From Prevotella sp. (GTDB lineage: Bacteria > Bacteroidota > Bacteroidia > Bacteroidales > Bacteroidaceae), in the NCBI GenBank assembly GCA_017618275.1, contig JAFZUS010000080.1, positions 1 through 40,359 of the forward strand: a DNA stretch of 40,359 bases, given 5' to 3'. The notes beneath the pieces are model-generated. The model saw nothing but the letters and a program-made list of their open reading frames with translations. It was not told the origin of the DNA and did not search any database. The position numbers and the translations under genes were made by a program. Position 1 is the stretch's first letter; each line of letters starts with the position of its first letter. Shown piece by piece: positions 7,409 through 17,292 of this stretch.

Positions 7409-7867
7409 TTAGCGGATGGTGATCCAGACGGCCTCGCCTCGGTCTTTGGCCTCGACGATTTTCTGTTTCAGGCGATGAACCCAGATGCGGGAGTCGAGGA
7501 CTTTGCCGACTTCACGGTTCTTGCCAACGAGGATGCAGCCTTCGGTGTCTTCCGAGCAGTTGCCCGCATGGATGCGGATGCCTTGCCATTTACGGTTGAA
7601 CTCTGGGCCGCCAAGCAGGATGGGGAGCCACTGCTTGAATTTCGGTGAGTACGAAATGACTACTGCATAGCGGCCTTCGGGAATGGCTGAGCGACCTTTT
7701 ACCTTGTAGGCACCGTTGGCATAGTCGCGCCAAGTGGGTTCCAGCGTGTCGCAGAAATACTGGTCTTCAATGCCGGGCAGGTATTCATCTATAACTTGGC
7801 GGCGAATGTAGAGCCTACCTATTGTGTAAGTCTTGCGTTTTGCTATACGTTCTAATATCAGTTCCAT
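7409..7867 (-). CDS. DUF5675 family protein
   Basis: 152 residues, no signal peptide and no membrane segment. The motif run YFCDTLEPTWRDY, KGRSAIPEGRYAVVISYSPKF, LLGGPEFNRKWQGIRIHAGN and EDTEGCILVG is that of the DUF5675 family, which occurs in Bacteroidetes accessory and phage-like loci. The HAGN...EDTEGCILVG part, with invariant His and Cys, recalls an L,D-transpeptidase-like catalytic patch, but that comparison is my inference and no activity is established to my knowledge. It is the last gene of the minus-strand accessory run, 36 bases after the VirE_N/DUF3987 gene, and the gap carries four 8-bp repeats (7884-7915). Confidence 0.8.
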   Translation of the reverse strand: MELILERIAKRKTYTIGRLYIRRQVIDEYLPGIEDQYFCDTLEPTWRDYANGAYKVKGRSAIPEGRYAVVISYSPKFKQWLPILLGGPEFNRKWQGIRIHAGNCSEDTEGCILVGKNREVGKVLDSRIWVHRLKQKIVEAKDRGEAVWITIR

Positions 7868-7883
7868 AATCTTGAATGTGCTT

Positions 7884-7915
7884 AATGTTACATTGTTACA
7901 AAGTTACTTTGTGAC
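7884..7915 (-). repeat. Array of four 8-bp repeats GTNACWWT (cluster 1)
   Basis: Read on the minus strand the units are GTCACAAA, GTAACTTT, GTAACAAT and GTAACATT, directly abutting. The array overlaps the stop codon of the VirE_N/DUF3987 gene, so its last residues VTK are encoded by the repeat. The same units recur at 15839-15870 and 15966-15997. Confidence 0.85.
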
Positions 7916-10336
7916 GTTTTCGGCTGCGGAGCTTACTTGTCGTTTACTCCAGTGGTGGCGGTCGGTCTTGCTTATCCAGCCGTCGCGCATCCATCGTGAG
8001 ATGATCATGCGCATGGCAGTTTCTGAGCAATAGCCGCGCTTCAGGGCTCTGAGGTCATCGATGGTGAAGGTTGGTGCAAGTTGGTCGAACACAGAGTGAT
8101 TGGCTCCATAGCGCTGGCACTCTTCACTGGCATCCACATACTGACTTTGCAGAGCCTCACCAAAGGTTTTGATCTGTTCCATCAAACAGTAGTCGGCCAT
8201 CATCAGAGCAAAGTCCAAACATTGTTTCGACTCTTTATCCTTCTTGCGTCCCTTCGGTAGCAAGCGACCTTCGGTCGAGCGGCCCTCCAGCAGGTGGAAG
8301 ATGACCCCACAACGGAAACCAATCACGGCAGCACGCTTACGATAGGTGTCCTTCACATGGTCGATATCCTTGGCTGCCTCTACTCGTTTCTGCTCTACCC
8401 ATTCCTCGATGGCTTTGCGCAAACGAGGGGTGTCAACGAGGCCGCTAAAGCTACGGAGTCTTGTTACTGCCTCCTGAATCTTGGCTTCATCCTCTGCCGA
8501 ACGACGGCCAAACTTGGGCATCTTTGAGAAGCTTGAGTCAGGCATTTCAGCCACGAGGATTCGGCTTGAAAGACCGTTTTCGATATTGTCCGACTTGAAG
8601 CACTTCCTCATGGCTCCGTTGGTGCCGAGCATCGTCCAGTTATAGGCCACCTTCACGACTCCCGACTCTGCGGCATCAGAATTGTAGTCCTGGCCCCACT
8701 CACCCTTATCGAACGAGAGACGGTAGATGTCGTACTTCGAACTCCACGAACCAGCACCGTTGGTTTTCCGGAGTGTATCAAGTTCTTCTCCGAACGAGTA
8801 GATAGTATGCCCCTGGGCATTCTTGAAACGCTTCAGGAGCGTTGAACATGAAACCGTGACTGGCACCATTCGAATCAGAACCTTTGGGTCTTCGGGAGCC
8901 TTTTCGTTGGCCTTGCGGCCCTTCTTGCGCTCCTTCCATTCCTCTTCACGCTTGCGGGCAAGGGCATCTTCTTCGTCAAACTGACGCTTCCAGACATCAA
9001 CGGCATTCTTGACCACACTCTTGTTCGAAGCCTGCTCACCCCGGATAATCGACATGAGGCCAAGGTGCTGCAAATTGCCGTCACAATACTCAATCTGAAC
9101 TTGGTCAGCGTAAGCTGCAGCTATAGGCAGCACACCACAGAGCACAGGCATGTGCATCGAGACAGGCACACCAGCAAGTGACTCTTTGAGTCCTATAGGC
9201 AAGGCTTTGACGTTGACTTTTACACCGGTCTCAGCAGCCACAGCCTCGGCATCCTCAATCTCATCCGAAGAGATTCCCATTTCGAGCGCACTCACAATCT
9301 GGTCTATCAAACGAGAACCCTTGGTAGGCTCCTTGCAGGCCGAATGAATGATGCTCTTCATTTCCTGAACGGACAGTTTGAAATTAGGCATCACTTCTAA
9401 TAGCCATTCCTCAGAGTTGTCGCAGATGGCACGAAGATTAGCCGCCAACTGATGAAGTCGCTTATTACGCTCACCCTCCGAAGGTTCACCTCCAGTTCTG
9501 CGCCAGTACTCACATATAATAGAGGTATAAGGCACGCCTTTGAATTCTTGCGGAAACTTGGTGGGGCTGTCATCTCGACCTTGTGGAGAGATCTCATGAG
9601 ATTCCTCGACTACGCTCGGAATGACAGAGGGCGCGCTCGGGATAACAATGTCACCATCATCACCTGGATCAAAGAAAGAACCATCCTCTGTGCGTCCATC
9701 AATGCTCAGACCTCTGTCAGTATAGGCCTTTCTCCTCGCAGCCACCTCCTCCTCTGAAAGCTGAGCGTACCAACCATCGGTACGATAGATTTCAAAATCG
9801 GCTGGCGAAATATAGATAAACCTCTCAGGGGTAAAGCACGATGTATCGCAAGCAACGCCAAGAGCCTTACAATACTCACGCTGAGCTTCGGGCACCGTCA
9901 TTCCTATCGGCAGACGAATATCGATGTGCAGTTTGCGACGGATAGAATAATCCTTGTGCAGCATCAAGCCCTGCCACTTTCCACCAACCTCTATATCGAG
10001 CCGTTCAGACATCTCGTTGGCTTTTTCCACCAACTCAGGGTCATCAATATCAATACACGTCTGCCAAGTGAAACTCTCAGCCACGATATGCTCACGATCG
10101 CGATAATCATCACGGAACTGGGTATAGTGAGGACAACGGAACGGCAACCACGATTTCAACTTTCTCTGTTGCTCATCATCGGCAGTCGAATTGATGCGCT
10201 CTGCCATCTGTTTCAGTCTCGGTGAACGAGTAAGTGCATCGTACTCTTGGAGCGGGCATTCTTTTACGAATGCCCTTGTTTGCTCCTTAGTCTGACGTGC
10301 GTTGAGTGCTATCAACTGCTTCAATTCTACTTCCAT
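7904..10336 (-). CDS. VirE_N / DUF3987 primase-helicase-like protein
   Basis: 810 residues. The N-terminal part (about 50-200) matches the BT4734/VirE N-terminal type (KLKSWLPFRCPHYTQFR, TWQTCIDIDDPELVEKA, RLDIEVGGKWQGLMLHKDYSIRRKLHIDIRLP, CDTSCFTPERFIYIS), thought to be a primase-like fold. The C-terminal part (about 290-780) is DUF3987-like, with a Walker-A-like IIRGEQASNKSVVKNAV and SFGEELDTLRKTN. The lysine and serine of the P-loop are kept but the glycine is replaced (ASNKS), so ATP use is uncertain. The linker (about residues 237-257) is encoded by an inserted palindromic repeat. A strong Shine-Dalgarno precedes the ATG. Proteins of this type sit beside HU-like and 'smalll' genes in many Bacteroidales; their role is unknown. 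Confidence 0.8.
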   Translation of the reverse strand: MEVELKQLIALNARQTKEQTRAFVKECPLQEYDALTRSPRLKQMAERINSTADDEQQRKLKSWLPFRCPHYTQFRDDYRDREHIVAESFTWQTCIDIDDPELVEKANEMSERLDIEVGGKWQGLMLHKDYSIRRKLHIDIRLPIGMTVPEAQREYCKALGVACDTSCFTPERFIYISPADFEIYRTDGWYAQLSEEEVAARRKAYTDRGLSIDGRTEDGSFFDPGDDGDIVIPSAPSVIPSVVEESHEISPQGRDDSPTKFPQEFKGVPYTSIICEYWRRTGGEPSEGERNKRLHQLAANLRAICDNSEEWLLEVMPNFKLSVQEMKSIIHSACKEPTKGSRLIDQIVSALEMGISSDEIEDAEAVAAETGVKVNVKALPIGLKESLAGVPVSMHMPVLCGVLPIAAAYADQVQIEYCDGNLQHLGLMSIIRGEQASNKSVVKNAVDVWKRQFDEEDALARKREEEWKERKKGRKANEKAPEDPKVLIRMVPVTVSCSTLLKRFKNAQGHTIYSFGEELDTLRKTNGAGSWSSKYDIYRLSFDKGEWGQDYNSDAAESGVVKVAYNWTMLGTNGAMRKCFKSDNIENGLSSRILVAEMPDSSFSKMPKFGRRSAEDEAKIQEAVTRLRSFSGLVDTPRLRKAIEEWVEQKRVEAAKDIDHVKDTYRKRAAVIGFRCGVIFHLLEGRSTEGRLLPKGRKKDKESKQCLDFALMMADYCLMEQIKTFGEALQSQYVDASEECQRYGANHSVFDQLAPTFTIDDLRALKRGYCSETAMRMIISRWMRDGWISKTDRHHWSKRQVSSAAENVTK
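9567..9627. repeat. Palindromic repeat element inserted in frame in a coding sequence
   Basis: Terminal arms CTGTCAT and ATGACAG enclose an imperfect palindrome centred on ATCTCATGAGAT. The sequence, with CTCGACTACGCTCGGAATGACA on one side split over its two arms, resembles dispersed intergenic repeats seen in Bacteroidetes genomes. Here it supplies about 20 residues (PSVVEESHEISPQGRDD region) between the two domains of the VirE_N/DUF3987 protein without breaking the frame. Confidence 0.75.
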
Positions 10337-10773
10337 ATTGTTTCCTCCTTGCGTGTTTTAAAGTAAGACATAATCTCGTCGGCCTCCTCCTGATAGAGGG
10401 CCTTGGTCAGAGCCAGCCCGTATTTCTTCGGGAACTTGAACGTGACGTACACGAATTCCTCATCCATACGGCGACGGCCATTGTAGGGTCTAATCTGTGG
10501 ACGGGTCATCTGAACCTTGGCGTGAGCCGTTTCATAGAGAGTCTCATACTTCGGGCCATTCTTACCGTCATTGTAGCGCTTCACTCGGGTGCGACCGTCG
10601 GCATCCACTTCGATGCCTGCACGATAACGTACACGTTCACCGTCGGTCACCTCCTTGTCTGATTCCCACGGGCACGGCACTATCAGCATGTTGCCGTTCA
10701 ACTGGAAGTTAACACTTGCGTCCATCTGGACTGCGTTATTCAAAATCTGTTCTGTAAATTTTTCTGGATTCAT
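10327..10773 (-). CDS. Hypothetical protein, accessory region
   Basis: 148 residues, soluble, rich in charged residues. I do not recognise the family. Readable parts are MNPEKFTEQILNNAVQMDAS, PCPWESDKEVTDGERVRYRAG, RPYNGRRRMDEEFVYVTFKFPKK and a helical C-terminus (ALYQEEADEIMSYFKTRKEE). It overlaps the start of the VirE_N/DUF3987 gene by 10 bases and its last codons contain that gene's Shine-Dalgarno, so the two are translationally linked and probably act together. No Shine-Dalgarno is seen in front of its own ATG at 10773. Confidence 0.7.
   Translation of the reverse strand: MNPEKFTEQILNNAVQMDASVNFQLNGNMLIVPCPWESDKEVTDGERVRYRAGIEVDADGRTRVKRYNDGKNGPKYETLYETAHAKVQMTRPQIRPYNGRRRMDEEFVYVTFKFPKKYGLALTKALYQEEADEIMSYFKTRKEETIWK
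10344..10350 (-). promoter_or_regulatory. Strong Shine-Dalgarno of the VirE_N/DUF3987 gene
   Basis: AAGGAGG lies seven bases before the ATG at 10336. Core genes in this window lack such sites, in line with Bacteroidetes translation initiation, so the site fixes the start and hints at foreign origin. Confidence 0.8.
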
Positions 10774-11317: not shown

Positions 11318-12163
11318 TTATCGCTTATGCCAATGCATGTCCTGCTGGTCGTATTCGTCGTATTTCGATTGGAAATCCTCGTCATCATCATCACCATTAA
11401 GCCGACGCTGATAGTCGATTTTCAGTAGTTTGACGCACTCCTGAATCACAGGCTGGGCCTTGTCATTGGCTGAGTCGCCTTTGTCAAGTCCCGTCAGCCA
11501 TTCACCCGATTTATCCTTGAAATGGCCCTCAAGGATAGCAGGCAAGGTGTATCCATCAGGCACAATAACCAGCCCTTCAGCCGCCAATTTCTTAAAGAGT
11601 CCAACAAGCGTTCCCTTGCCAAACTTGCCCGTCCAAGTGAGTTCGCAGTCCTCGTCTCTCTGTCCAGAGAACAATGCCTTGAAATCGGCCTCAACGCCTT
11701 CAATCCATCCCTCATCGGTCAGCTTCTGATACAGCAAGGTCAAGTGACCGTCAATGATGCCACTCTTCCGTTTTAGCGTCATTATCTCACGCTGTTTCTG
11801 TGACTTTTTACTTATGGCTTTCTTTTGCTTCTTCGTTTCTTTTACTATCTCAGTTTTCTTTGCATGCTGTTCCAGCCACTCTATCGACAACATGCCGATG
11901 GCCTGAATCTTCAGCTTGGGCAACGTCAATTCACGTATTTCCCAAACCTCCATGACCGCTGGCTCCACCTGATGCTGGTAACTATCCCAGAACTCAAACG
12001 TTTCGCCCTGACCAATCTTCCGCATGGCAGCAGCCCGAAGAGCACCTGCATCAGCCGCCGGATCTTGAAGTTGTTGCAGCTGGGAGAGCCACAACCCATC
12101 CTTCCGCAGAGCCGACAACCACTCCGAGGCCGAGGCATAATCGCCTCGATTGTTGCTCATCAT
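11318..12163 (-). CDS. Hypothetical protein, accessory region
   Basis: 281 residues from ATG 12163 (MMSNNRGDYASASEWLSALR). A longer frame to 12256 runs inside the preceding gene and is rejected; the chosen ATG overlaps that gene's TGA in an ATGA. The N-terminal half is helical. The middle is a Lys-rich stretch (KKTEIVKETKKQKKAISKKS). The C-terminal half (LTLLYQKLTDEGWI, DFKALFSGQRDEDCELTWTG, GTLVGLFKKLAAEGL) has a pattern I associate with RteC/DUF6043-like hypothetical proteins of Bacteroidetes mobile elements, at low certainty. The extreme C-terminus is acidic (NGDDDDEDFQSKYDEYDQQD). It is the last gene of the RelB-PIN-led run before the repeat-rich gap. Confidence 0.7.
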   Translation of the reverse strand: MMSNNRGDYASASEWLSALRKDGLWLSQLQQLQDPAADAGALRAAAMRKIGQGETFEFWDSYQHQVEPAVMEVWEIRELTLPKLKIQAIGMLSIEWLEQHAKKTEIVKETKKQKKAISKKSQKQREIMTLKRKSGIIDGHLTLLYQKLTDEGWIEGVEADFKALFSGQRDEDCELTWTGKFGKGTLVGLFKKLAAEGLVIVPDGYTLPAILEGHFKDKSGEWLTGLDKGDSANDKAQPVIQECVKLLKIDYQRRLNGDDDDEDFQSKYDEYDQQDMHWHKR

Positions 12164-13188
12164 AGGGCATCGTCCTCCTCGCGCCATTTGCCATATCCGC
12201 ACCTCTCGGCATGGGCCATCAGATACATAAAGGCCAGGGAATCGTCGGTAAGCCATCCTGCGGCCAGATACTTGGAGCGCACCTCGCGGACTTTCGCTAC
12301 AAAGCCATTCATTACATTACTCTGAGCGCGTTGCACCGATTCTGGCTGTTCGTCCCACGGGAGGTCATCATCGTAGCCATCCACCACCAGCCGCCCACAG
12401 AGTTCTGAGTCCATGTAGTCATAAAGCTCCTGAGCGGCTTGAAGCACACCTTTATCAAACTGACGGGGCACCACGCCATAAATCTCGTCGTGCAGCATGA
12501 TTAAGTCTGGCTTCAGTTTCAGCCTCATTCCCCGCTGCCAGTGCCTATCTATCTGGAGCATCGCATCGAGTATAGTCTTCACATAACCGCGAGGCGGCAT
12601 ATTTGTATTGTACGGCTGTCGAACCAGTTCATTATACTCCAAAGAAAATAGTTCGGCCAATTCGTCCTGTGCAGGCTGGTAATGCTTATTTGTATATTCA
12701 CCGATGGCAAACTTCTTCATGATGTAAGCCGTGTGCATGGCTATCTGCTCATACTCCGTCGTACCCAGCCACTCCACCAGTTGTTTGTTCGACACCCTGA
12801 AATCAGTCTTCCTGATGCCGAAGGCCTCCTTCAGGTCGAACGTAAAGTGCAGAGCCAAGTCGTGACACAGACCGGCTATTTCTAATATCAGTCGCAGCCG
12901 GAGCATCTCCCTGTCTGTTAGCGTCTGCTGCTCAACGAGCGACAACAGCGGACTGGGATTCTTATCATACTGAACCCTGCCTACGTCAGCCGTCCAAAAC
13001 ATATCAGACAGATACATCGCCAACGGCGCCGAACCATACTTCTCTGTCAGCAGTCGTTCTACCTGCGCAAGCTTGTATGCCCTGCGTTCTTCACCCATCA
13101 ACCGGCTTGCCTTGTCAAGGCCAGCCCCCTTGAAAAGTCTTCTCTCGATATATGCCAGTTCCTGCCTAGCTGTTCTTTTCTGTTCCAT
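12160..13188 (-). CDS. Hypothetical protein, accessory region
   Basis: 342 residues, soluble, mostly helical, no recognised domain. A histidine-aspartate pair occurs in LEIAGLCHDLALHF (about residues 104-117), but the further histidines of an HD phosphohydrolase are not obvious. The start at 13188 follows the PIN toxin stop by two bases and the end overlaps the next gene by four, so it is transcribed and translated with both. That arrangement, toxin-antitoxin then two unknowns, suggests that the pair is maintained by the addiction genes or works with them. No function is assigned. Confidence 0.7.
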   Translation of the reverse strand: MEQKRTARQELAYIERRLFKGAGLDKASRLMGEERRAYKLAQVERLLTEKYGSAPLAMYLSDMFWTADVGRVQYDKNPSPLLSLVEQQTLTDREMLRLRLILEIAGLCHDLALHFTFDLKEAFGIRKTDFRVSNKQLVEWLGTTEYEQIAMHTAYIMKKFAIGEYTNKHYQPAQDELAELFSLEYNELVRQPYNTNMPPRGYVKTILDAMLQIDRHWQRGMRLKLKPDLIMLHDEIYGVVPRQFDKGVLQAAQELYDYMDSELCGRLVVDGYDDDLPWDEQPESVQRAQSNVMNGFVAKVREVRSKYLAAGWLTDDSLAFMYLMAHAERCGYGKWREEDDAL

Positions 13189-13190
13189 AG

Positions 13191-13592
13191 TTATAATGTT
13201 GCCATCTCGATAAACTGCGCTGGAGTAATCACACGAGGCGAGGTGGGATAATGTTTTAAGTTGCCCGTCACAAGAAAAGAATCCTCTTCACTCAAAGAAA
13301 CTTCATAGAACACACGATCATCCTCGTCTGGCATCGGCTCTGCAAAATCAATCCTTGATGCCTCTATACCATTCTCGATAATAAAAGATATAAGTGCATC
13401 GGCCACTTCTGGCAGAATGGGGAACTTCGAACGATGTAACACATCCTCGTATTCCGCGATTATGTCAGCATCATACAGGGGTACGAATCCATTATCCAAT
13501 AGGAGCCGCACGACTTTAGCAGTTGCCGCCTCAGGATTTTTCGTTATCAAAGCCGACACCAGCGCGTTAATATCTATCACAGCGTATATCAT
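13191..13592 (-). CDS. PIN-domain toxin of a type II toxin-antitoxin pair
   Basis: 133 residues, the size of PIN_3/COG1569 toxins, which are predicted Mg2+-dependent ribonucleases. The first acidic residue is in MIYAVIDINALVSALITKN (Asp7). Glu in YDADIIAEYEDVLHRSKF and the C-terminal PDEDDRVFYEVSLSEEDSFLVTGNLKHYP supply the other acidic ligands, with the typical TGNLKHYP strand. The ATG overlaps the antitoxin stop by four bases. Its partner is a RelB/DinJ-type antitoxin, a combination seen in other Bacteroidetes. Confidence 0.88.
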   Translation of the reverse strand: MIYAVIDINALVSALITKNPEAATAKVVRLLLDNGFVPLYDADIIAEYEDVLHRSKFPILPEVADALISFIIENGIEASRIDFAEPMPDEDDRVFYEVSLSEEDSFLVTGNLKHYPTSPRVITPAQFIEMATL

Positions 13593-13897
13593 ATTGCTCG
13601 CTGCTTTTTACGACGTTCTTCCCTTGCGGCGCGAATCTCAGCATTGATTTCGTCAAGTGTCATCTCTGGTTCCTGACTGGCCTCTGCCGCCTTACGTTGC
13701 TGCATAAACAAATCAAGGGCACTTGGTTGCTCTAACCTGCTGCCTCTGATAGTAAATGGAATGCTACGACTTCTGATTACTGCCTTCACGAAAATGTTGA
13801 AAGCCGTGTTAGCACTCATGCCAAACTGCTCACAGAGTTCGTCAAACTGCGACTTCATCTCTGAGTCTATTCTTACTGTTACTGCTGACTGTGCCAT
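13589..13897 (-). CDS. RelB/DinJ-family antitoxin
   Basis: 102 residues from ATG 13897 (MAQSAVTVRIDSEMKSQFDE). The frame extends to 13960, but that part overlaps the predicted promoter start region and lacks similarity. The N-terminus is a ribbon-helix-helix DNA-binding domain: strand VTVRID, helices KSQFDELCEQFG and SANTAFNIFVKAVIRSRSIPF, the DinJ signature. The C-terminus, rich in Glu, Arg and Lys (DEINAEIRAAREERRKKQ), should wrap the toxin. Such antitoxins bind their own operator; matching palindromes lie at 13922-13976. Confidence 0.88.
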   Translation of the reverse strand: MAQSAVTVRIDSEMKSQFDELCEQFGMSANTAFNIFVKAVIRSRSIPFTIRGSRLEQPSALDLFMQQRKAAEASQEPEMTLDEINAEIRAAREERRKKQRAI

Positions 13898-13921
13898 AAT
13901 ATATAACCTTTTATAGAATGA

Positions 13922-13976
13922 TGGCATAATGCCACCATTTCGATGGCAAAAATACAACAATTATCTGATATTGCCA
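13922..13976. promoter_or_regulatory. Candidate operators of the RelB-PIN operon
   Basis: TGGCATAATGCCA (13922-13934) is a perfect inverted repeat. TGGCAA (13944-13949) and TTGCCA (13971-13976) form a second, wider one that spans the promoter. Their position on the -7 and -33 elements fits autorepression by the ribbon-helix-helix antitoxin. Confidence 0.6.
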
Positions 13977-14274: not shown

Positions 14275-14970
14275 TTACTTAACTTCCCTTCCAGATCCCA
14301 AAGCTTTGTCAATGACTAAGAAAAATGAAAAAGGGTCGTCTTTTAACTTGTTCTTATGGATGGTTTTGACATAGTTCTTGATGGTGGGATAGTCCTCGAA
14401 CTCATCACAAAGCGTCGCTCTGCGTTTGTCTGTTAGTTTTTTCCCCTCCCTGAAAAGTGCTTTAGCATGCTCCATACCCAATGTCTTATATAAGTAGAAA
14501 TCACCGAACCACAAGTCCCAGGCTTGATAGATAGTGACATTCTTACCTCGATAAAACACATAGCACATACTTGGATAACCATACTCTATAGGAGTCTCAT
14601 TGCCATATGAATAACGGACAGGAACAGAGTGACTGACCAATATCTCATCTGGCTCCGTATCAAACCATATATACATACTGTCGATGTCCTTAGTGGCGTG
14701 TCTTCTGTTTTTACTGAAGAGATTATCCTGGCTATTCAACACAACAGTTTCATCGTAGACGCATACGCTATAGTGACCATTCATAATGTATCCACTGTCG
14801 GTAGTCCCGTCTTTCAGCCACACCTTGGCGTGAAAAAATTTTTTAATGACTTTCTCCTTTTGTGCAGATGTTCCAATAGGCATCACGATAGCGAGAGCGA
14901 AGATTATCAATTTTATCTGTCTGAAATGAGTAATCTTGTAGATACCTTCAAATACCTTTCTTTGTTTCAT
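14275..14970 (-). CDS. Secreted hypothetical protein
   Basis: 231 residues. A signal peptide is suggested by IKLIIFALAIVMPIGTSAQ (about residues 19-37) after a 19-residue basic N-terminus; the Gln after the cleavage site is common in Bacteroidetes. The mature part starts with a strand-rich stretch (FFHAKVWLKDGTTDSGYIMNG) and later has helical sequence (LYKTLGMEHAKALFREGKKL). The family is not recognised. A shorter start is possible, but no later methionine fits a signal peptide better. No TAnnTTTG promoter was seen upstream, and its base composition is AT-richer than the neighbouring core genes. Confidence 0.65.
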   Translation of the reverse strand: MKQRKVFEGIYKITHFRQIKLIIFALAIVMPIGTSAQKEKVIKKFFHAKVWLKDGTTDSGYIMNGHYSVCVYDETVVLNSQDNLFSKNRRHATKDIDSMYIWFDTEPDEILVSHSVPVRYSYGNETPIEYGYPSMCYVFYRGKNVTIYQAWDLWFGDFYLYKTLGMEHAKALFREGKKLTDKRRATLCDEFEDYPTIKNYVKTIHKNKLKDDPFSFFLVIDKALGSGREVK

Positions 14971-15030: not shown

Positions 15031-15432
15031 TCATACCGCTATTAATTCCTGACCTATCTCACGAACGGTATCCAGAATCAATGTCACCCTTGCATCGCTG
15101 GCATTCTTCTTACCACTGATATACTGCGCCATCAGACTCTGGGAGATACCCAGACGGCGGGCAATAGCAGATACATTCAACTCTGGATGCGCCATGAACA
15201 CTTTATAGAGTCGTGTTGTTTCAGGCTTGTCAAAGAAGCCCTCAAAACTCAGATCCTCATCGATATCTTCCCAATGTATCCCGTACTCATCTGCCTCATA
15301 GTTGGCTCGCTGTTCTTTGGTAGCATATCTCAAACGAGGATAGTCATTAAACTTTTCGCATGCCTCACGTCCGTCTTCAGTCCTAATCCAAACGGCATCG
15401 TCAGTCAGCCAAATTTTCTCAATCTTCTCCAT
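15031..15432 (-). CDS. DUF2442 domain protein with C-terminal HTH (antitoxin-like)
   Basis: 133 residues. Residues 1-45 (MEKIEKIWLTDDAVWIRTED, GREACEKFNDYPRLRYATKEQR) match DUF2442. The GIHWEDIDEDLSFEGFF stretch is the usual DUF2442 end. The C-terminus (HPELNVSAIARRLGISQSLMAQYISGKKNASDARVTLIL) is an XRE/Cro-type helix-turn-helix. DUF2442 and DUF4160 genes are regularly adjacent and are suspected to form a toxin-antitoxin-like pair; the HTH would make this the autoregulatory partner. It is preceded by a perfect Shine-Dalgarno that overlaps the stop region of the DUF4160 gene. Confidence 0.82.
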   Translation of the reverse strand: MEKIEKIWLTDDAVWIRTEDGREACEKFNDYPRLRYATKEQRANYEADEYGIHWEDIDEDLSFEGFFDKPETTRLYKVFMAHPELNVSAIARRLGISQSLMAQYISGKKNASDARVTLILDTVREIGQELIAV

Positions 15433-15437
15433 AATTA

Positions 15438-15446
15438 CCTCCTTTT
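15438..15446 (-). promoter_or_regulatory. Perfect Shine-Dalgarno of the DUF2442-HTH gene
   Basis: AAAGGAGGT lies five bases before the ATG at 15432 and touches the TAA of the upstream gene, which suggests translational coupling. This is atypical for Bacteroidetes. Confidence 0.8.
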
Positions 15447-15685
15447 TATTTTGCGTTATTAAAAAACGTATTCCAATGTTGGGCTATAATCTCTTCGTTG
15501 TCCTCCAAGATTGCCTCAATCATTTTCAGTTCAGATGGTTTGAATCCGTGATTATAAACCAATGAAATAGGCAGGATGTTATATTTCGCTACCGCTCCAC
15601 CCTTTTTCACATGAATGTGAATAGGCGTATGGTCGTTTCCATAGAACCAAAATCTGAAACCTAATAGTGTAAATACTGTTGGCAT
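15446..15685 (-). CDS. DUF4160 domain protein (toxin-like partner)
   Basis: 79 residues from ATG 15685 (MPTVFTLLGFRFWFYGNDHT). The family hallmarks are present: FRFWFYGNDHTPIHIHVKKGGAVAKY with the PIHIHV core, and the C-terminal helix PSELKMIEAILEDNEEIIAQHWNTFF. A longer frame to 15766 is rejected because it would begin upstream of the promoter at 15711-15742. DUF4160 proteins are commonly encoded with DUF2442 proteins; their biochemical activity is not established to my knowledge. The pair forms its own transcription unit within the accessory region. Confidence 0.85.
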   Translation of the reverse strand: MPTVFTLLGFRFWFYGNDHTPIHIHVKKGGAVAKYNILPISLVYNHGFKPSELKMIEAILEDNEEIIAQHWNTFFNNAK

Positions 15686-15710
15686 ATCACTCAATCGATC
15701 ATTTCTGCTG

Positions 15711-15742
15711 CAAAGATAGGTAATTATTTTATTACCTCCAAA
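15711..15742 (-). promoter_or_regulatory. Promoter of the DUF4160/DUF2442-HTH pair
   Basis: On the minus strand TTTG (15739-15742), 20 bases, then TATCTTTG (15711-15718). Predicted transcription start near 15704, 19 bases before the DUF4160 ATG. Confidence 0.75.
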
Positions 15743-15782
15743 TTTTGGAGCAACTTTTTTATCCATTACCTTTTGTAGGTAA
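15719..15782. promoter_or_regulatory. Three palindromes over the DUF4160 promoter, candidate operators
   Basis: GGTAAT-N6-ATTACC (15719-15736) fills the spacer between the two promoter elements. CTCCAAATTTTGGAG (15736-15750) covers the -33 element. TTACC-N7-GGTAA (15766-15782) lies just upstream. The repeated GGTAA half-site suggests one dimeric regulator, most simply the HTH protein of the same operon. Confidence 0.6.
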
Positions 15783-15838: not shown

Positions 15839-15997
15839 GTCACATTGTCACTTTGTAACAATGTAACAATAAGGATTTTCGATTTATGCCATTTTTACTT
15901 TAGAATAATAATAATTATAATTATTATTATTCTAATAGTTATCGTCTGCACTTCGGCACGGGCTTAATGTTACAAAGTTACATTGTTACAATGTGAC
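15839..15997. repeat. Mirror-symmetric 159-bp repeat structure with a 36-bp perfect palindrome
   Basis: The left arm (15839-15870) has four abutting 8-mers: GTCACATT, GTCACTTT, GTAACAAT, GTAACAAT. The right arm (15966-15997) has four in the opposite orientation, read on the minus strand as GTCACATT, GTAACAAT, GTAACTTT, GTAACATT. Between them an AT-rich perfect palindrome of 36 bp (15900-15935, ends TTAGAATAA and TTATTCTAA) is centred within one base of the midpoint of the two arms. The structure lies between the divergent DUF4160 and HU units. Confidence 0.85.
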
Positions 15998-16391: not shown

Positions 16392-16982
16392 ATGGCAAAG
16401 ATTTTGTATGAAGTAAAACAGAACAAGAACAGTCACAGCACCGCATTCGGCAAGTGGTTCGCAAAAGTGAAATCGCTGGAAACGCTGAATACGCGCAGGT
16501 TAGCACAGCACATCTCGGAGCACGGAAGTATCTACACCCCCGATGTCGTCTATGGCGTATTGGAGAAGTTCCGCAGTTGTCTGCTGGAGATGTTGCTCAA
16601 CTCGAAGAAGGTGAAGATTGAGGGCCTCGGCACGTTCTACTGCACCCTTGAAAACCAGAAGCACGGTGCCAAGAAGAAGGAGGAATATAGTGTACGCGAG
16701 CACATCAAAGGTCTGCACGTCAGATTCCTGCCCGAGCAGACCACCGAGGAGAACATCTCCAGTCGCGAGTTCCTCAAGAAGGCCGAGTTTATTCTCATCG
16801 ACTCCCTCCTGCCAAAAGATGAAGAGTCGGAGAATGGCAACAGTACCGGCGAGAACGGTGGAGGCACTGAGAACGGTGGTGGTGAGAACGGTGGTGGCAC
16901 CAACCAGGGCGGCGGAACCGGAAACATCAACACCGGAGGCGGTGACGACAACGGTGGAGGCACTGGATTCGACGAAGGCTAA
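16392..16982 (+). CDS. HU-family DNA-binding protein with Gly-rich tail
   Basis: 196 residues from ATG 16392 (MAKILYEVKQNKNSHSTAFG). The frame opens at 16314, but that part precedes any plausible start for this family. Residues 1-125 follow the Bacteroidetes HU-like (HU-HIG) pattern: TAFGKWFAKVKSLETLNTRRLAQHISEHGSIYTPDVVYGVL, then LLNSKKVKIEGLGTFYCTL, the DNA-contact arm region being diverged from true HU. The tail (about residues 140-196) is low-complexity Gly/Asn/Glu (ENGGGTENGGGENGGGTNQG). Proteins of this kind are regularly encoded with 'smalll' peptides, amidases and VirE_N/DUF3987 genes. A nucleoid or element-specific role is likely but not shown. Confidence 0.88.
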   Translation: MAKILYEVKQNKNSHSTAFGKWFAKVKSLETLNTRRLAQHISEHGSIYTPDVVYGVLEKFRSCLLEMLLNSKKVKIEGLGTFYCTLENQKHGAKKKEEYSVREHIKGLHVRFLPEQTTEENISSREFLKKAEFILIDSLLPKDEESENGNSTGENGGGTENGGGENGGGTNQGGGTGNINTGGGDDNGGGTGFDEG

Positions 16983-17019: not shown

Positions 17020-17133
17020 ATGAAGAAGAAGAGTTTCATTGAGATTGCGGTGAAGGTGATAGTAGCCGCGCTCACAGCCTTCCTGACGGCCATCACCACC
17101 ACCAGTTGCATGGGACACGGGCCTATCTACTAA
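17020..17133 (+). CDS. Smalll family peptide (37 residues)
   Basis: MKKKSFIEIAVKVIVAALTA continues to FLTAITTTSCMGHGPIY. The basic start, hydrophobic helix (about 7-24) and TTTSCMGH end match the short peptide family named 'smalll protein' in public annotation, found next to HU-like genes in Bacteroidales. The TSC site resembles a lipobox without fitting it fully, so the peptide may be a membrane-anchored or lipoprotein-like product. It follows the HU gene by 37 bases and is closed by a strong terminator. Function unknown. Confidence 0.85.
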   Translation: MKKKSFIEIAVKVIVAALTAFLTAITTTSCMGHGPIY

Positions 17134-17137
17134 AGAA

Positions 17138-17164
17138 AAACTTCCCCCATCGGGAAGTTTTTTT
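17138..17164 (+). terminator. Rho-independent terminator after smalll
   Basis: Perfect 9-bp stem AAACTTCCC/GGGAAGTTT (17138-17146 with 17152-17160), loop CCATC, then TTTT. It marks the right end of the accessory transcription unit. Confidence 0.88.
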
Positions 17165-17292
17165 GCATTTTACATTTATCCGCACCGGTATTATTGCATA
17201 ATTTGGTATAACAATTCAACTATCTGAATACAAAATACCAGAAACGATGTGTAATGCAAATAGAGGTAATTAGTATCTTTTAACAAGATAGA

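Follow-up and report, generated by a model that had tools for sequence, protein, structure and literature searches.

The stretch of DNA analyzed here (the window) comprises 40,359 nucleotides of contig JAFZUS010000080.1 from the Prevotella sp. assembly GCA_017618275.1. Between divergent genes for a DUF4160 protein and an HU-HIG family protein, it harbors a mirror-symmetric structure of 159 bp (15839–15997), which an initial annotation had picked out from the letters alone; direct reading of arrays and palindrome, and of the divergent genes on either side, bears this description out. The left array (15839–15870, forward strand) consists of four GTNACWWT units, GTCACATT GTCACTTT GTAACAAT GTAACAAT, followed inward by AAGG, and the right array (15966–15997, reverse strand), on the HU side, of GTCACATT GTAACAAT GTAACTTT GTAACATT, followed inward by AAGC. 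The 95-bp region between them (15871–15965) contains an AT-rich, perfect palindrome of 36 bp (15900–15935), and the centers of arrays and palindrome coincide to within less than one base (15918 and 15917.5, respectively), as had been claimed. Two shuffle tests rule out chance or a simple repeat as the origin of these features: the window holds 19 two-unit matches with at most one mismatch, where 100 dinucleotide shuffles predict 0.10 (these are not 19 separate arrays, as the arrays overlap themselves on both strands), and the palindrome is longer than in all 200 dinucleotide shuffles of the inner region (maximum 14 bp). In the source genome, which is 92% complete, all ten three-unit matches with at most one mismatch fall inside the window, and a reversed control gives one. 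The units of the left array are not matched one by one in the right array, which speaks against the two pairing in that way as a stem. Rfam lists no known RNA family at the site.

A third array and a primase-helicase-like gene

The initial annotation overlooked a third, single array on the reverse strand (7884–7915), with three exact units at 7884–7907 and a fourth carrying one mismatch. It overlaps the 3' end of the DUF3987 gene (7904–10336, reverse strand) and lies directly before the gene for a DUF5675 protein (7409–7867, reverse strand). The DUF3987 protein (810 amino acids) combines AEP-like primase motif residues (D96xD98 and H137), a DUF3987 helicase domain and a predicted C-terminal winged helix (codons 748–800; 7937–8095). 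Among 34 proteins, D96, H137 and the Walker lysine K439 are present in all and D98 in 33. At the C-terminus, the AlphaFold model has helices at residues 749–752, 759–766 and 772–784 and strands at 756–758, 788–790 and 795–798, which is the winged-helix order; residues 772–784 (7985–8023) form the predicted recognition helix. DUF3987 has been predicted to be a helicase of mobile elements, according to a passage in PMC5862659. Fold comparison, as a check on an AEP primase domain, matches 3h20 and 6jon with low Z and very high root-mean-square deviation, and it lists no P4 origin-binding domain for the DUF3987 protein, an absence that carries no weight. Upstream lies the gene for p148 (10327–10773, reverse strand), a conserved 148-residue partner with no family match above cut-off; solved-structure profile searches with the DUF3987 protein and p148 gave nothing below an E value of 0.4.

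The symmetric structure is conserved across Prevotella

Of 150 genomes of the genus, 20 contain exact three-unit arrays, the source genome being one of them. A scan of named genomes for three units plus AAG returned at least 118 stretches, and each of the 80 that were listed has Prevotella, Prevotellaceae, Bacteroidaceae or Bacteroidales in its title. We extracted sixty paired sites, drawn from the window and loci L039–L140, and carried 58 forward, some of which overlap or derive from one genome. The two halves are not equivalent: in 50 of the 58, AAGC reads inward at one end and AAGG at the other (eight sites could not be assigned), and of 12 elements that have an HU neighbor, 11 have it at the AAGC end. 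Among 55 sites, 32 have a perfect central palindrome of 28 bp or more, and 44 reach that length if up to two mispairs are allowed, leaving 11 without even that; the palindrome beats all 200 shuffles in 36 sites when perfect pairing is scored and in 41 when two mispairs are allowed. As the letters of the palindrome vary between sites, a change in one arm has been matched in the other wherever the palindrome is still perfect. The search for homologous loci without arrays or without a conserved palindrome, which the initial annotation had suggested as a check, thus leaves the symmetry standing. The symmetric structure is real and conserved, and it recurs across Prevotella.

Repeat units and the DUF3987 protein change in step

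In the window the core of the repeats reads GTAAC, and other islands have GTGAC, GTCCC, GCCAC, ATGAC or the seven-base ATGACAG (T2); a T2 17-mer is found in 24 of 150 genomes and never in a reversed control. Among 86 loci with a DUF3987-like gene, 26 islands were readable by an automatic rule, and in 25 of these the core of the symmetric site equals that of the 3' array (for six T2 loci, the criterion was presence of the T2 motif at both places). In 20,000 label permutations, uncorrected for kinship, agreement averaged 4.9 and never exceeded 14. A looser rule made nine of 14 further loci readable at both places, eight of which agree, for an overall tally of 33 of 35; this counts L213 as agreeing, where the right half matches and the left half does not. 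The core differs between symmetric site and 3' array in L054 and L211, and in either case the residue in the helix is the one expected for the 3' array next to it. At L254 a 3' array is absent. We dropped the idea that units reflect incompatibility: where co-resident type-I islands were seen their units differed, yet genome G081 bears several T2 sets.

The protein changes with the repeat. Residue 777 ranks first of 637 alignment columns from 37 proteins in its association with unit base 3 (normalized mutual information, NMI, 0.92): A goes with Met (7/7), C with Asn (16/16), G with Lys (12/13, the other being Gln) and T with Val (1/1). Residue 780 ranks first for base 2 and second for base 4, for which residue 790 comes first; residues 773, 777 and 780 all fall within the predicted helix 772–784. 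In proteins outside the fit, base and residue agree in 11 of 12, with four that had a training motif left out. The best control columns reach 0.28 in the rest of the DUF3987 protein, 0.28 in p148 and 0.23 in DUF5675. For HU, the best column reaches 0.41 in a small test of only 11 rows, on which residue 777 reaches 0.78. On a quick tree built without the winged-helix domain, base 3 and residue 777 each change 12 times, good support being limited to eight of the 34 inner branches; independent pairs on supported branches agree in 3/3, 3/3 and 5/6 cases (the sixth does not differ), none of these sets alone reaching p = 0.05. Since residue 777 tracks base 3 and no column beyond the winged-helix domain comes close, the arrays are very probably binding sites of the DUF3987 protein. 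The link between the site and the primase-helicase gene is therefore stronger than first proposed, given unit concordance, covariation and the held-out proteins, and the suggestion of a shared operator for the HU-like protein finds no support, because the base-tracking residue sits in the DUF3987 protein. Nor does anything found here speak positively for a role in partition or recombination.

Island architecture and cargo

Loci fetched around p148 and DUF3987 genes, many of them cut by contig ends so that only a partial order is visible, share a recurrent arrangement: a divergent HU gene, array–palindrome–array, variable cargo, p148, DUF3987, the single array and DUF5675. Relatives of p148 occur in 73 of 398 same-genus genomes; in a draw of 150 genomes, strict GTNAC arrays were found in 20, p148 in 29 and both in 10. 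In 1006 of 1185 island pairs, DNA homology ends no more than 25 nt from the stop codon of DUF5675, which makes DUF5675 part of the island unit. The island sits at different chromosomal places. In the window its neighbor is rho. The DNA match to 18 relatives from the same genus breaks off close to the rho stop codon, from 19 bases before it to three bases after, and the roughly 1.5 kb fetched beyond rho in these relatives contains no relative of DUF5675. Plasmid records gave no match, phage records gave two remote metagenome fragments with no array recognized in either, and IMG/VR gave three contigs with a relative. The source genome has three further DUF3987 genes (contigs C170, C171 and C183; L229–L231), at whose 3' ends no matching 8-bp array was found. 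One genome (G282) carries two islands, L251 and L288, with near-identical DUF5675 DNA (96%), similar HU DNA (89%) and different initiator types (GTCCC and T2, respectively).

Cargo was surveyed in 102 of 137 listed proteins, with Pfam and PADLOC tallies each drawn from the first 25 families. Within these, DNA methylases are the commonest Pfam families (4, 3 and 3 members), restriction enzymes occur singly (XamI, Bpu10I, Eco29kI and BsuBI/PstI), and PADLOC ranks mad2 first (5 members), followed by type II and type III methyltransferases (4 and 3). The cargo of the window island includes PIN/RelB and DUF2442/DUF4160 neighbors. On the reverse strand the island encodes p312 (11318–12256; 312 amino acids) and p342 (12160–13188; 342 amino acids), both with relatives in several islands, and, as cargo, a PIN-domain protein (13191–13592), a RelB-type antitoxin in an open reading frame with a TTG start (13589–13960), a 231-residue protein without family match (14275–14970), a DUF2442 protein (15031–15432) and a DUF4160 protein (15446–15766) that weakly resembles the toxin DhiT, below that model's cut-off; the last two genes form a pair (15031–15766). 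The HU-HIG family DNA-binding protein is encoded divergently on the AAGC side (16392–16982, forward strand), and downstream of it lies a weak, sub-threshold Rfam match to Phe_leader (17131–17256). PADLOC gave no match for the ten window island proteins. Pfam named no recombinase family among the ten, no packaging, capsid or other helper-phage family, and no integrase family (four of the ten are without family match, and no search for att repeats was made).

Bare copies of the site

The expectation that the repeats always lie near HU and DUF3987 genes was not borne out, as copies also stand alone. To survey one such place, we fetched 37 dtd loci (30 being the best matches of a 150-genome search, the rest chosen genomes, several picked for arrays or islands). 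By eye, 11 of the 36 readable loci have a symmetric structure between uvrC and dtd, with differing units: GTAAC and T2 nested in G020, G099 and G121 (the latter two cut by contig ends), T2 alone in G081 and G088, GTGAC in G032, TTCACAG in G090, GTTGCA in G218, GTTGCAG in the source genome (G000) and G051, and GGTCATTT in G007. At two such loci (L045, 9999–10242; L114, 2386–2627), T2 (ATGACAG) arrays are nested inside GTAAC arrays around one shared palindrome. The copy in the source genome (contig C210; L330, approximately 1131–1270) is a bare GTTGCAG-type site with a 24-bp palindrome. A chromosomal oriC is rejected for this structure: it was not seen in 25 of the 36 readable loci, and, of ten genomes searched, all seven with dtd and dnaA on a single contig have them at least about 0.5 Mb apart. 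L061, L097 and L128 represent one chromosomal place, with symmetric sites in opposite orientation and different units (GTAAC and GTGAC).

In strain MN60, the site was copied together with about 186 bp of HU-side flank and without the HU gene. Its three near-identical sites (L078, L124 and L125) have this flank in common (only 75 bp were available for L125) and diverge on the opposite side; next to the L124 site, an HU gene was not seen. Such bare sites may be relics, may serve regulation or may be origins that move.

Discussion

The sequences show the architecture, the matching of units, the residue–base code, the conservation of the palindrome and the differing chromosomal places. Of the options offered by the initial annotation, a replication site is the one that the evidence favors. 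We consider it reasonably probable, with some reserve, that the structure is an iteron-type, palindrome-centered replication origin of an integrated island. We envision a scenario whereby the initiator that the island itself encodes, the DUF3987 protein, docks here: its C-terminal winged helix would bind the GTNACWWT units, as the strong protein–DNA covariation suggests. The two opposed four-unit clusters might load the protein from both sides onto the AT-rich palindrome, which could melt or form an extruded hairpin for the helicase domain to open; the primase domain would then prime synthesis, resulting in a two-way origin. At the 3' end of the initiator gene, the single array might represent a second binding site of the same protein, and the unit from HU to DUF5675 would be an island with restriction-modification and toxin-antitoxin cargo between origin and initiator. 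This layout suggests itself because primase motifs, a helicase domain and a putative sequence-reading winged helix come together with opposed site clusters around a melting-prone palindrome. As in iteron-type origins of primase-helicase elements (the P4/SaPI kind), clustered short direct repeats flank an AT-rich core, and covariation points to a cognate initiator with a repeat-specific DNA-binding domain. Binding by the DUF3987 protein, melting, replication, excision and transfer are what we infer from these sequences.

Some observations do not yet fit an origin. Bare symmetric sites occupy other loci, apart from island genes, and genomes such as G044 have several sites and no match to PF13148, a model that is weak here. 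Nor is there a stem-loop directly 3' of the replication gene as in pRN1: the DUF3987 gene has only an array at its 3' side, and the palindrome is located kilobases upstream of it. Alternatively, the DUF3987 protein might sit on the arrays to repress or loop the promoters of the divergent HU and cargo genes, without the site serving in replication. The position between divergent genes fits an operator, two distant matching arrays suit DNA looping, and the HU-side flank common to islands holds what we take to be a promoter-like motif. We nevertheless regard this as unlikely, as it leaves unexplained the long palindrome, the primase motifs, the helicase domain and the copies without nearby island genes.

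Those copies might instead speak for a mobile insertion unit resembling a miniature inverted-repeat transposable element, in which the arrays would serve as terminal inverted repeats and the DUF3987 protein or another enzyme would mobilize the unit. The arrays are indeed inverted, though not identical unit by unit; copies reside at many loci, different unit families occupy the uvrC–dtd gap in different species, MN60 has three near-identical copies in different places, and one site is nested inside another. However, no target duplication was recognized by eye in the flanks of the extracted paired sites, copies within a genome are often unlike, the flank of two MN60 copies is shared for about 186 bp past the array, and no transposase appears among the proteins scanned. 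Such a unit is accordingly rather improbable. The symmetric structure is also distinct from PINSR, a 188-bp dispersed repeat of the Prevotella intermedia group, which resembles the site as a dispersed non-coding Prevotella repeat of similar length and is described, in the relevant passage of PMC4755523, as lacking terminal inverted repeats, whereas the arrays are inverted at the ends of the site.

Site-specific recombination between direct array copies at the cargo ends, allowing circle excision or cargo exchange, would come as a surprise: the AAGC half and the 3' array, separated by about 8 kb, point the same way and cargo varies between islands, but homology between islands ends at the DUF5675 stop codon rather than at the array, and no recombinase family is among the ten window proteins. 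That the HU-HIG protein binds the structure as a partition or nucleoid site is scarcely credible, for despite the regular position of HU on the AAGC side, repeat specificity tracks the DUF3987 protein and not HU (compared on 11 rows only).

If the structure is an origin read by the DUF3987 protein, a common and unnamed Prevotella island has its own replication system, with restriction-modification and toxin-antitoxin genes as cargo. It would then represent a natural experiment in initiator target change, in which the binding helix and two distant repeat sites shift together repeatedly while the rest of the protein stays constant, and one could directly test both a recognition code of the winged helix and how origin specificity evolves. 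Orthogonal initiator/origin pairs might furthermore be usable as replicons for Prevotella genetic tools. A bolder and doubtful extension is a hitherto undescribed, integrase-free class of mobile islands that spreads and diversifies via its origin: the primase-helicase would copy from the palindrome-centered iteron site and bare sites would spread alone, so that orthogonal site families build up in a genome, each with an initiator of its own that reads it by a one-residue, one-base code.

How does the site compare with known systems? Literature searches confined to open-licence PMC papers brought up no description of the symmetric structure. The origins of Staphylococcus aureus pathogenicity islands and other phage-inducible chromosomal islands have iterons around an AT-rich stretch and are served by primase-helicase replication proteins. 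The Prevotella island is similar in its short repeats on both sides of an AT-rich core and in its primase-helicase-like protein; it differs in having no recognized phage-satellite genes and in its long and perfect palindrome. Phage P4 has a second, distant iteron site (crr), to which we liken the single 3' array. Unlike in P4, the island site consists of two inverted clusters around a perfect palindrome, and no integrase or helper functions were found in the window proteins. In the account given by the pRN1 authors in passages of PMC4234260, the winged helix of P4 alpha binds origin repeats; alpha thus unites primase, helicase and a repeat-binding winged helix in one protein, as predicted for the island protein, its primase being of the TOPRIM type where the latter has AEP-like motifs. 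According to the same passages, the pRN1 protein, with an AEP primase, a superfamily 3 helicase and a winged helix, needs a stem-loop of about 100 nt that is conserved in structure and not in sequence. The island resembles pRN1 in its AEP-like primase motifs, helicase domain and predicted winged helix, and in a potentially hairpin-forming element whose structure is conserved more than its sequence. It departs from pRN1 in having iterons, which the pRN1 origin is described as lacking, its stem-loop starting 54 bp 3' of the rep gene (PMC4234260). By analogy, the island site thus appears to combine the structure-conserved hairpin layout of pRN1 with repeat binding of the P4 alpha type.
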